Positions 5,954 to 33,415 of a stretch of 64,000 bases of DNA are shown here, one piece after another; the first letter of the stretch is position 1, and each line of letters begins with the position of its first letter. This DNA comes from Undibacterium parvum (GTDB lineage Bacteria; Pseudomonadota; Gammaproteobacteria; Burkholderiales; Burkholderiaceae_D): the NCBI RefSeq assembly GCF_003955735.1, contig NZ_CP034464.1, forward strand, positions 1,426,001 through 1,490,000, in the 5' to 3' direction. The notes under the pieces are model-generated. The model was not told where the DNA came from. It was given only the letters and a program-made list of their open reading frames with translations, and ran no database searches. The position numbers and the translations under genes are program-made.

Positions 5954-6003
5954 CGTTGGCAGGGGGGGGCGATTTCAAGCACATGCGCCTGATTACGTTT
6001 GGA

Positions 6004-6582
6004 TTAGAGGTACTTTACGATTTCGCCTGACTCGCGGCATAAGAAAAATTCAATATCCAGGAAAATATCGCATTCGCGCTTTAAGTGCTTGCTTAGACCA
6101 TCTTCAAAGAACCAAAGAGCAACCTGCTTGCCTGAACGCTTAACTTCTTGAACCAATGGCACATAATCTTCATCTCCAGCGACCAAAACAGCTACATCGT
6201 AGTTGTCGTGAAATGCGTGGCTTAACATTTCTGTCGCAAGCGTTATGTCTACTCTCTTTGAGCGGTTGCTGGTGTTTTTCTTGAACACCCTTGGATCACT
6301 TATGCCGCACTCGATGAGTTCATCTTGCAGGGTTTCAATTCGGTCATGGTCGCCCTTTGCACATGTATAGTAAAAGCTTCTGACTAACGAGCATTTACTA
6401 TGCGTATGCCTATTGGCGTATTGTGTCCATGTATATACATCCTGTACATGTTTAACGTGATTTGGGGCTTCAATTCCGTTTTTCTCTAGATGGTTTTTGT
6501 AACGGATAGAGAGATTCTCTCCATCAACGAATACCATGAACCGACTGTTGTTGGGCACCGATATTGGGAGATAGTTTGGCAA
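6004..6582 (-). CDS. NYN-domain (PIN-like nuclease fold) protein, probable integron cassette gene
   Basis: A 192-residue protein of the NYN/LabA-like DUF88 group. Acidic metal-site motifs of PIN-like nucleases are visible: FVDGEN (Asp20), KRVDITLATEML (Asp112) and VAGDEDYVPLV (Asp137, Asp139). Such proteins are presumed or known RNases. Here the start would be TTG at 6582; the next Met is residue 16 inside the first motif, so TTG is more plausible. It reads away from an attC-like site (6591-6680), 8 bp downstream of its GTTAGAG end, as expected for a gene inserted as an integron cassette. Base composition looks more AT-rich than the neighbouring genes, consistent with transfer. Biological role unknown; nucleic-acid processing or defence is possible. 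Confidence 0.8.
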   Translation of the reverse strand: MPNYLPISVPNNSRFMVFVDGENLSIRYKNHLEKNGIEAPNHVKHVQDVYTWTQYANRHTHSKCSLVRSFYYTCAKGDHDRIETLQDELIECGISDPRVFKKNTSNRSKRVDITLATEMLSHAFHDNYDVAVLVAGDEDYVPLVQEVKRSGKQVALWFFEDGLSKHLKRECDIFLDIEFFLCRESGEIVKYL

Positions 6583-6590
6583 GGCAGTAC

Positions 6591-6680
6591 CTCTAACGCC
6601 GAGATGACGAGATCGCCACGACGGTCATAAATTTAAGTGAAATATTCATTGGCGATTCTCTGTCGATTGACCTGTTAAGC
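6591..6680 (-). other. attC-like integron recombination site 2
   Basis: Read on the minus strand it begins GCTTAAC (fits RYYYAAC) and ends GTTAGAG (GTTRRRY with one mismatch). Inside is an imperfect inverted repeat (6606-6618 with 6650-6664) in which one arm has two extra unpaired bases, the extrahelical-base pattern typical of attC sites. The upstream ORF's TAA stop (6675-6677) lies inside GCTTAAC, as in classic cassettes. Confidence 0.6.
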
Positions 6681-6989
6681 ATCACGATTTACCCATGCGT
6701 CTTCACAACGCGCATAAACAACTAAACGTAAGTAACTCATTGGCTCTGGCTCTGGCAAGTCGATATATTCCTCTTTAACGTTGCAACCCAACCCAGCTTG
6801 AATTTCAGTGACTGCACAATTTAATGCTTCTAATGCAGACTCATGTAAAGCACCGTCTGAGTAAACACGAAAAAGCATATTATTTGAGGGCATATCAGTA
6901 TCAATCGAAATGCTTCGAACTCTCGGCGTGATGTGAGAAGTAAGCGCAATTTGTGTCCACGCACGTAATTCGATGTCGGATACATTCAT
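6675..6989 (-). CDS. Hypothetical protein, probable integron cassette gene
   Basis: A 104-residue soluble protein of unknown family starting at the ATG at 6989. That start lies 3 bp after a GTTAGGC core site (an upstream in-frame start at 7031 would lie inside the attC-like site and is rejected). The stop TAA is embedded in the next GCTTAAC core site. This ORF bracketed by attC-like sites is exactly how integron cassettes are built. The sequence has alternating hydrophobic strands, a central RVYSDG segment and a C-terminal LPEPEP...YLRLVVYARCEDAW segment; no catalytic motif or signal peptide is visible. Many cassette genes are similarly orphan. Confidence 0.65.
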   Translation of the reverse strand: MNVSDIELRAWTQIALTSHITPRVRSISIDTDMPSNNMLFRVYSDGALHESALEALNCAVTEIQAGLGCNVKEEYIDLPEPEPMSYLRLVVYARCEDAWVNRDA

Positions 6990-6992
6990 GAT

Positions 6993-7076
6993 GCCTAACG
7001 AATAGCATTTATCCGCCGCACCGGAACGCAAAAATAAAATCCGCTACCTGCTTGCGGCGGATAAACCTTGTTGGAC
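6993..7076 (-). other. attC-like integron recombination site 1
   Basis: On the plus strand it runs from GCCTAAC to GTTGGAC, matching RYYYAAC and GTTRRRY exactly. Perfect 13-bp inverted arms (TTTATCCGCCGCA at 7008-7020; its complement at 7053-7065) lie between, with unequal spacers to the core sites (8 and 4 bp). On the minus strand the GTTAGGC end is followed by ATC and the ATG of the hypothetical cassette gene. Confidence 0.7.
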
Positions 7077-7253
7077 TGAACCGCCTCCGTGGCGGTCACA
7101 CTGGGGATTGTAAGCGATGCGTTCGCAGTATTGCTAGTAATTCGACATGTAATTGCACCGACTCAACTCAGCAGGTCGCAATCTTTGCGTAGGGCGACAA
7201 TCGCCGCAGGCGTATTGCGCCGCGTAGAATCTCAAATACAGGCAACGCCACTG
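7077..7253. other. Intergenic stretch upstream of the cassette pair
   Basis: No convincing gene and no integron integrase gene. At about 7190-7230 there are short GC-rich inverted motifs of the kind often seen in dispersed repeats. Open frames here and through 8700 coincide with repeats and have no recognisable protein features. Confidence 0.4.
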
Positions 7254-7310: not shown

Positions 7311-7583
7311 CGTTGGCGGCATGTTGTTTTTGGTTTGCCGTGGCTTGGTCTTGTTTATATTTCTGTCGTTGTTGGGCGATTGCTGGCCGGTGGTAGACCG
7401 GCGGCTACTCCCTTTTCTTGCTTCGCCAAGAAAAGGAAGCAAAAGAAGGCGACGCAAAGTCGCTGCCCTGCGGGTTCCCGCCTGTGCAGGGCAAAAAATG
7501 GGAAAAGTTCGAAACTCGCTACGCTCAAACACGAACCTTTCTAATCCATTTTCTGCCCCGCACAAGCGGCAGCGCCACATGCG
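7254..7583 (-). repeat. Composite ~330-bp repeat, copy A (inverted)
   Basis: The minus strand of this segment matches, with moderate divergence, the segments at 7734-8064 and 8332-8662. All three begin CGCATGTGGCGCTGCC, contain a segment with GCGACTTTGCG and a palindrome GCCGGTCTACCACCGGC, and end with a 57-bp palindrome copy. This copy lies in the opposite orientation to the other two. Confidence 0.7.
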
Positions 7584-7667
7584 GAAAGCGAAAGTCAACA
7601 CATCCGTAGTGCGGCTTTCGTCTCTCCGCACACGCAATGCTCAAGCACATCGAGCTACGGCAAACTG

Positions 7668-7726
7668 CTGCTTTTGATCTGGGGTTTGACTTGGCTTTTG
7701 ACTTGGCTTTTGACTCTGCTTTTGAC
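7668..7726 (+). repeat. 12-bp minisatellite (GCTTTTGACTTG units), first tract
   Basis: About five slightly diverged tandem copies of a 12-bp unit near GCTTTTGACTTG. A matching tract precedes composite copy C. Frames through it give Lys/Gln/Ser/Val repeats that I regard as non-genic. Confidence 0.7.
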
Positions 7727-7733
7727 TAGAATT

Positions 7734-8064
7734 CGCATGTGGCGCTGCCAATTGTGCGGGGCGGAAAATGGATCAGAAGTGAAGCTGTCTGAGCGCAGCG
7801 AGTTTGCTTCATTTCCCATTTTACGACCTGCATAATTGGGCATCCCGCAGGGACAGCGACTTTGCGGCGCCTTTTTTGGCATACCTTTTTTGGCGAAGCA
7901 AAAAAGGTATGTAGTTGCCGGTCTACCACCGGCCAGCAATAGCACAACAACCAAAGAAGTCAAAACAAGACCAAGCAACAGCAAATAAAAACACCATCAA
8001 GCCACTGCGCATATCCCATGCGGGCTACAGGCAAGCATGCCCGCAAACCCGCATGGGATATGCG
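7734..8064 (+). repeat. Composite ~330-bp repeat, copy B
   Basis: Nearly identical to copy C (8332-8662) and same orientation; both are 331 bp. The similarity extends leftward through the minisatellite to about 7650. It carries 57-bp palindrome R4 at its right end. Confidence 0.8.
8008..8064. repeat. 57-bp palindromic repeat, copy R4
   Basis: Right end of composite copy B. One of the best copies: the outer ~21-bp arms pair almost perfectly (ATATCCC with GGGATAT). Confidence 0.85.
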
Positions 8065-8237: not shown

Positions 8238-8266
8238 GTTTGCTCCGAGTTACGGCAATCCGGTGC

Positions 8267-8324
8267 TGCTTTTGACCTGGCTTTTGACCTGGCTTTTGAC
8301 TTGGCTTTTGACTCTGCTTTTGAA
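8267..8324 (+). repeat. 12-bp minisatellite, second tract
   Basis: About five tandem 12-bp units (GCTTTTGACCTG/GCTTTTGACTTG) directly left of composite copy C, at the same relative position as the first tract. Confidence 0.75.
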
Positions 8325-8331
8325 TCGAATT

Positions 8332-8662
8332 CGCATGTGGCGCTGCCAATTGTGCGGGGCGGAAAATGGATCAGAAGTGAAGCTGTTTGAGCGCAGCGAG
8401 TTTGCTTCATTTCCCATTTTACGAGCTGCACAATTGGGCATCCCGCAGGGACAGCGACTTTGCGTCGCCTTTTTTGGCATACCTTTTTTGGCGAAGCAAA
8501 AAAGGTATGTAGTTGCCGGTCTACCACCGGCCAGCAATAGCACAACAACCAAAGAAGTCAAAACAAGACCAAGCAACAGCAAATAAAAACACCATCAAGC
8601 CACTGCGCATATTCCATGCGGGCTACAAGCAAGCATGCTCGCAAACCCGCATGGAATATGCG
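8332..8662 (+). repeat. Composite ~330-bp repeat, copy C
   Basis: Direct repeat of copy B, offset by 598 bp, with only scattered substitutions. Ends with 57-bp palindrome R5. High identity suggests a recent local duplication or gene conversion. Confidence 0.8.
8606..8662. repeat. 57-bp palindromic repeat, copy R5
   Basis: Right end of composite copy C. Relative to R4 both arms changed together (ATATTCC pairs with GGAATAT), a compensatory change that keeps the hairpin. Confidence 0.85.
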
Positions 8663-33147: not shown

Positions 33148-33415
33148 TACTGTTCAACTCGCTCTACAAAGTCCTTCTCCCGCTCGCGGGAGAAGGGTAG
33201 TTCAAGTTACGCGTAATATTCGATTTTTCGTAGTGTTAAGCGTATCAGCTATTTGAAGGCAAGCGTTACTCAATCACCCTCCCTTGCAGGGCGCATATTC
33301 GCTTACGAGCGAATATTGCTACACAGGTGGATGGCATGCCATCCAAATTCCCTGTTACGCCCCCGGCCCTCTCCCGCCAGCGGGCGAGGGAGTTTTCATC
33401 GCTCGCTGAACAGTT
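33148..33415. repeat. MITE-like element, copy M4 (with nested insertion)
   Basis: A 268-bp copy with ends TACTGTTCAA and CTGAACAGTT. It carries the same nested insertion as M3 at the same position, so both descend from one composite ancestor. Confidence 0.8.
33281..33361. repeat. Nested ~80-bp insertion inside M4
   Basis: Matches the insertion in M3 almost base for base, including GGATGGCATGCCATCC and the ATTCGCT/AGCGAAT dyad. Confidence 0.7.

Follow-up and report, generated by a model that had tools for sequence, protein, structure and literature searches.

A CALIN is defined by at least two attC sites with no integrase nearby. Such clusters, together with the single attC sites (SALIN) that likewise lie apart from an integron integrase, are described in PMC9229058, and the locus reported here resembles both in that cassette genes and attC sites are scattered in the chromosome with no intI nearby; it differs in that one of its two sites is, on our reading, a transposon terminus, and in that such tips head several clusters of the host genome. 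Insertion of cassettes into genomes at attG (Loot et al. 2024, as cited in PMC12901181 and PMC11023631) is a further way for cassettes to land outside integrons, and one that could conceivably apply to our locus. Other mobile elements tied to attC sites, the IS1111-attC elements and group IIC-attC introns, invade attC as described in PMC9229058, whereas the type-1 elements defined below bring an attC-like end of their own and leave the neighbouring cores readable.

The IS91 family provides the closest comparisons. As portrayed in PMC6218425, ISCR1 carries outward promoters on its oriIS side, and ISCR1 and IS91 share with our elements the IS91-family transposase, variable genes of the same direction on the oriIS side and a link to class 1 integrons; our elements differ in having an attC-like end and a gene for a tyrosine recombinase, and in their location at attI or attC rather than at the 3′ conserved segment that figures in that account. 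An IS91-like element forming a cassette-like unit in an integron has been reported in one case, ISShvi3, the end of which is undescribed. What we find is instead a group of elements with an attC-shaped end in many genera, the contrast with ISShvi3 being drawn from its published description. In the open-access literature searched ISShvi3 was the nearest case, and no account of a group of IS91 elements ending in attC was found there, accounts elsewhere being possible. We consider it probable that the locus consists of the decayed tip of an IS91-family transposon that integron integrases could move as a gene cassette, followed by two cassettes stranded outside any integron.

Results

The window (the whole 64,000-nucleotide stretch of Undibacterium parvum DNA that was analysed) contains, in minus-strand order, site 1 (7076-6993), an ORF of 104 aa (6675..6989), site 2 (6680-6591) and an ORF of 192 aa with a TTG start (6582-6004). 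The ATG of the 104-aa ORF is at 6989, 3 bp past the GTTAGGC of site 1, and its stop codon (6677-6675) lies inside the GCTTAAC (6680-6674) of site 2. The sequence-only reading had described two minus-strand ORFs, each behind a palindromic element flanked by cores and packed as in integron cassettes, and both the arrangement and the packing are present in the sequence. The 104-aa protein had no match in the local Pfam, NCBIfam or PADLOC collections, and its relatives carry a precomputed PF26541 assignment. The second protein matched PF01936 (E 1.1e-23), in agreement with its earlier description as a NYN-domain, PIN-like protein; it has 484 homologues, the best of them 92% identical, and a PDB sequence search with it returned none at E ≤ 1. 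It also matched the PADLOC candidate-defence model HEC-09 (E 2.4e-12). Each of the two genes was found in one of 43 Undibacterium genomes, the host's own, and the NYN gene in none of 299 other Burkholderiales genomes (300 searched, the host's own being the only one with the gene, at E ≤ 1e-25); close relatives of both proteins are present in a large protein collection.

The NYN gene ends with a stop codon inside AGTACCTCTAAT (6003..6014, minus strand), which repeats the cassette start at 6586-6596 in inverted form over 11 bp (inverted repeat I25). Since AGTACCTCTAAT and the cassette start resemble the R″ and R′ of one attC, the attC of the NYN cassette was probably cut off at this point, 6003..6014 likely being its R″ side with the rest missing; behind the NYN gene there was no further attC match in the window with the covariance model R2 introduced below. 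We read the 104-aa and NYN genes as two integron gene cassettes without an integrase, the second of which has a truncated attC.

No integron integrase reached the curated cut-off in the host genome, which comprises 4.91 Mb in one contig and is 97.95% complete (best score 81.8 bits against 265), and the lack of an intI gene noted from the letters of this stretch extends to the whole genome. Measured against the CALIN definition, the locus has one canonical attC and one attC-like tip, in a genome from which intI is absent. A full intI was present in 14 of the 41 relatives' genomes searched, several of them from the same genus. Broken or partial intI-like genes were seen in some Undibacterium genomes (contig C148 of G006, and others), which points to repeated loss of the integrase.

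The locus is flanked by two conserved genes, presumably phosphofructokinase-like and CorC-like. Their aligned blocks are 3.0 kb apart in the window genome, 55 bp in G020, ~1 kb in G057, 3.8 kb in G006 and 4.1 kb in G014, and since the length of the gap varies among relatives, it appears to be a place that takes insertions. The search of relatives that had been proposed did find genomes without the two ORFs, given the close spacing in G020 and the presence of each gene in a single genome of the genus. The stretch from the tip to the CorC-like gene is filled by a 300-bp direct repeat (97%; 7666-7965 and 8264-8563) and by long inverted repeats, with inverted partners at 7328-7583; related intergenic repeats lie beside other tips in the host genome.

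Site 2 (6591..6680, minus strand) has the cores R″ GCTTAAC (6680-6674) and R′ GTTAGAG (6597-6591). The single core mismatch reported earlier, in R′ relative to GTTRRRY, is confirmed, and the extrahelical bases read from the sequence are three single extra bases, all on the left arm, rather than two. Folding energy did not set site 2 apart from shuffles (z −0.2 to −0.9). Because folding energy alone gave this site no support, covariance models were built, trained on 20 attCs from outside the window, one of them from the host genome. Model R1 was given an automatic structure, which kept 6 pairs, and in model R2 the R and L stems were specified by hand. When run over the window without filters, R2 placed site 2 at the top with 26.3 bits (E 5.4e-5 in 64 kb, minus strand), in gene orientation, the next-best place scoring 13.2 bits, 13 bits below it; R1 also ranked site 2 first in the window (E 0.14). 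The covariation score of R2 was reached by none of 500 shuffles, a result that, as the tool warns, kinship alone can produce without structure. As controls outside the training set, the attC after aac(6′)-IIa scored 41.0 bits with R2 and the site after aadA4 41.6 bits. A genome-wide R2 search gave at least 12 matches and is no census, 150 of 1046 candidates having been scored and site 2 itself missed. Rfam returned no match over the window, its holding an attC family not being presupposed. With its R″ and R′ cores, extrahelical bases on one arm, cassette orientation and covariance-model match, site 2 is by sequence a canonical attC, that of cassette 1. A scan for cores plus stem recovered the two sites and, in the rest of the window, a single weaker place (33152-33212), which was absent from the R2 matches there. 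The same scan over 685 kb of other loci, picked for units (site 1 plus its leader, see below) and integrases, gave 27 non-unit matches, compared to 2-5 in shuffled sequence.

Site 1 (6993..7076, minus strand) fits both cores, as had been stated, with R″ GTCCAAC at 7076-7070 and R′ GTTAGGC at 6999-6993 around a hairpin whose stem is a perfect 13-bp palindrome (arms 7065-7053 and 7020-7008), and its folding energy is distinct from that of shuffles (z −3.2). Its stem contains no extrahelical bases, which counts against the cassette reading, and R2 gave no match to it at E ≤ 10 in the window; the canonical model also missed, at E ≤ 1, the tip of the pM216_AC2 element described below. The covariance-model check suggested for the two attC-like sites, carried out with a model built here, therefore upheld one of them, site 2.

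The 301 bases around site 1 match 13 places in the host genome, the window included, as whole or partial copies, and the part common to them is site 1 together with ~75 bp upstream in gene orientation, which we call the leader (7077..7152 in the window, minus strand). The hairpin is spanned by nine of the 13 copies, among which L047 has a short leader and L048 a damaged right core, while the other four are partial, two of them consisting of the leader only. The leader also occurs without an attC-like hairpin at L051 4000-4073, L053 2885-2961 and L070 7419-7492. Behind the nine hairpin copies the sequence differs each time and a start codon follows within ~50 bp; some other tips are followed by genes with canonical attCs behind them (L050 7424-7513 and 10973-11036, L052 4187-4276, and L049 5306-5377, the last of which belongs to the model training set). 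The integrase-free cassette cluster proposed at first is thus real as regards its two cassettes but is not alone, as there are nine hairpin tips in the chromosome and canonical attCs after at least three others. No transposase, recombinase or integrase remnants were found near the host genome's tips, which counts against the cassette reading. The unit of site 1 plus leader had matches in 15 of 43 genomes of the genus, and a search of GTDB species genomes for one of its 20-mers gave 58 stretches with an exact match, 50 of them with record titles that indicate Betaproteobacteria; no match to the window unit was found among plasmids. Two other interpretations of the unit were rejected: a MITE-like unit sharply bounded on the left, since homology among the host's own copies extends beyond that edge, though fading, and the unit is accounted for by complete elements, and a promoter-only cassette, as the GTT core was not seen at the left edge of the unit. 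The leader contains a conserved TACAAT motif and a small hairpin and, together with R″, forms the inner copy of the inverted repeat of the element described next. As a weaker suggestion, by analogy with the outward promoters of ISCR1, the gene behind the tip may be transcribed from the TACAAT region.

In two genomes of the same genus (G016 and G020) the unit follows a transposase gene, and in G020 the transposase contains the domains Y2_Tnp and Zn_Tnp_IS91, with a tyrosine recombinase ahead of it. The combination that marks the IS91 family, a Y2 transposase with the IS91 zinc-binding domain, was found at L063 (PF04986, E 2.6e-54; PF14319, E 4.7e-33). The 58 stretches contain 60 sites, and 11 of these had a transposase match upstream, six of the 11 with the recombinase as well; this is a lower bound, as 300 bp of upstream sequence were available for 49 of the 60 sites and 2500 bp for 32. 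Relatives of the transposase were present in 23 of 399 genomes of the order (E ≤ 1e-30), and an attC-like site lay 244-331 bp behind the transposase match in 16 of 36 loci scanned, with three more such loci identified by eye (L195, L201 and L089). By sequence these attC-like ends fall into three types: type 1, to which the end in the window belongs, measures ~84 bp, type 2 ~59 bp and type 3 61-64 bp. Type-3 transposases are ~34% identical to those of type 1, the two lying far apart in a midpoint-rooted tree, and a further transposase group with ~45% identity ends differently. In related elements with IS91 and recombinase genes at four loci (L202, L203, L204 and L205) a terminal hairpin headed by GTCCAAC or GTTCAAC is kept behind the transposase gene, without a GTTR edge.

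A complete element is ~2.5 kb long and runs from TTGAAC through a tyrosine recombinase gene, a Y2 transposase gene and ~250-330 bp of further sequence to the attC-like terminus, ending at G^TT. Its left end, GTTGAACTAAACCGC, is an inverted copy of the R″-core sequence, which in the window unit shows agreement at 13 of the first 15 bases. The elements are spread mainly among Betaproteobacteria, in several families of the order. We considered whether the element's recombinase could be an IntI and rejected this, since it gave partial TIGR02249 matches of ~105-117 bits against a cut-off of 265 and forms a clade of its own beside IntI and Xer. From the cores, the hairpin, the repeat copies, the ORF behind it and its place in complete elements, we conclude that site 1 represents the 3′ end of an element of the IS91 family and not an ordinary attC, in contrast to its earlier reading as one of two attC-like cassette sites. 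Read in this way, the window holds a decayed 3′ element end, cassette 1, a canonical attC, and cassette 2 with its attC cut off.

We examined 69 type-1 ends (the 60 sites and nine of the host's own), in 63 of which the right arm was recognised. In these 63, conservation is gone within seven bases after G^TT, save for a C at the ninth. GTT itself is present in 54 of the 63 ends and conforms to GTTRRRY in 31 of the 54, as against 5.5% of other GTTs. Of the 60 ends with enough sequence, 45 have an ATG ORF of at least 80 aa that starts within 60 bp behind the tip, compared to 6.1% of random places.

The type-1 elements with a visible left end number 12, a sample on which the following share rests, and in ten of them this end is at attI or attC, although for one the match is weak. 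Two are directly behind an attC (L129, the attC of which is in the training set, and L119). At L102, L147, L148 and L197 the last 20 bases of the left flank agree at 16-19 positions with sequence found upstream of intI elsewhere, a presumed attI. The weak match is the left flank of L198, with 14 of 20 bases (p 0.02); the same attI test gave p 0.007 for the flank of L129, which is an attC, so that single values of this test mislead. The element in G426 begins 314 bp from an intI match, and that of L116 at a distance of ~200 bp from a 42-bp piece of intI-like coding sequence, with no full intI found in its genome. The tenth is carried by plasmid pM216_AC2 (E. coli, human source; L254, NZ_AP018145.1 118259-129458), where a complete element takes the place of a gene cassette within a clinical class 1 integron; the genes run intI1, aac(6′)-IIa, recombinase, IS91-family transposase, aadA4, qacEdelta1 and sul1. 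Its left edge is the exact end of the aac(6′)-IIa attC, and at its right edge the attC-like tip is followed by GTTAGGC and aadA4. At megablast level pM216_AC2 is the sole holder of its element among 72,556 plasmid records, no match was found in complete E. coli genomes, and a term search of the main text of the pM216_AC2 paper found no mention of IS91.

The other two of the 12 elements (L255 and L209), on the Polaromonas plasmid pA29BJ2 and in G306, lie off any recognised integron site, which counts against the cassette reading. The pA29BJ2 element is complete, and its tip is followed by GTTGTTA and then by the gene of a tyrosine recombinase that is not IntI; the G306 element is cut off by the contig end. 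Judged by position, ten of the 12 type-1 elements have the form of a cassette, lying between integron sites, beginning with TTRRRY and ending at the G of their own attC. A full intI was present in nine of 11 distinct genomes with elements of types 1-3, compared to the 14 of 41 relatives. Type-3 elements gave a different picture: at four of eight loci (L094, L222, L224 and L088) they are found at an attC but turned the other way round, as though the inverse core served as target, and the others are away from attCs, which also counts against the cassette reading. In G202, three type-3 copies share exactly the sequence from GTTGAAC to CTTATTCGTTG, one being at an attC and two elsewhere. The type-3 pattern fits a transposase with a GTTR target.

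Discussion

The left edge of the complete element, G^TTGAAC, is an R′-like core, and with the right-hand hairpin it supplies the two ends that a cassette needs, from which we infer that integron integrases would move the element as a gene cassette. In the host genome, a transposon-cassette and the cassettes behind it would then have come to lie outside any integron, whether by the action of an integrase since lost, of one supplied in trans or of the transposase that the element itself encoded; decay would subsequently have reduced the element to about its last 160 bp. We read the tip and the two cassettes as an old arrangement outside any integron, and one-ended IS91 transposition may have acted as a carrier of cassettes. 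Since IntI and a transposase with a GTTR target leave the same junctions, the sequence does not tell the two apart.

These identical junctions also suit the strongest alternative, IS91-type transposition alone, which we regard as possible but rather unlikely. In this case the hairpin would be the rolling-circle end joined to a GTTR target, its likeness to attC a by-product, integron sites would be struck because their cores begin with GTTRRR, and IntI would never act. In PMC6218425 the mode of movement given for the family is rolling-circle replication that starts at oriIS and stops at terIS, and transposition would account for the G202 copies away from any attC, the reversed orientation of type-3 elements at attCs and the type-1 element on the Polaromonas plasmid. 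A four-base target would, however, scatter the elements, whereas ten of the 12 type-1 elements are at attI or attC, in cassette orientation where this is visible, and their R′ fits GTTRRRY far beyond GTTR. It is improbable that site 1 is instead the genus's own type of attC, with IS91 genes beside it by chance. The attC part is indeed alike across Undibacterium, and many chromosomal integrons have attCs that are alike in sequence (PMC8618304), yet this end recurs 244-331 bp behind transposase genes in several families, in three sequence types with the same left end, and the arrays adjoining the tip use quite different attCs. That chance palindromes happen to lie beside unrelated ORFs can practically be dismissed; folding did fail to single out site 2, but the R2 match at that site, the ORF starts and GTTRRRY cores behind the tips and the excess of cores-plus-stem matches over shuffled sequence refute it.

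Beyond movement as a cassette, we tentatively raise the doubtful idea that a group of the IS91 family fused its rolling-circle terminus with an attC, such that one single-stranded hairpin would serve two enzymes. The guide sequences of other HUH transposons pair with their target. By this idea R″ (GTCCAAC), which would be the inner copy of the inverted repeat, could pair with a GTTR target and would also be the core for IntI. If so, the elements could exit integrons by means of their transposase, be recollected as cassettes, and plant attC-like sites in genomes; in the boldest form of the idea, the terminal hairpins of such elements would be the source of some attC sites.

Since the canonical attC model misses the tips, such elements may have been overlooked. 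They may also go some way to explaining why some cassettes are found far from any integrase. The formation of new gene cassettes is described as an outstanding question (PMC8618304), for which a transposon with an attC-like end, located at integron sites, would offer a concrete carrier of attC-like sites.
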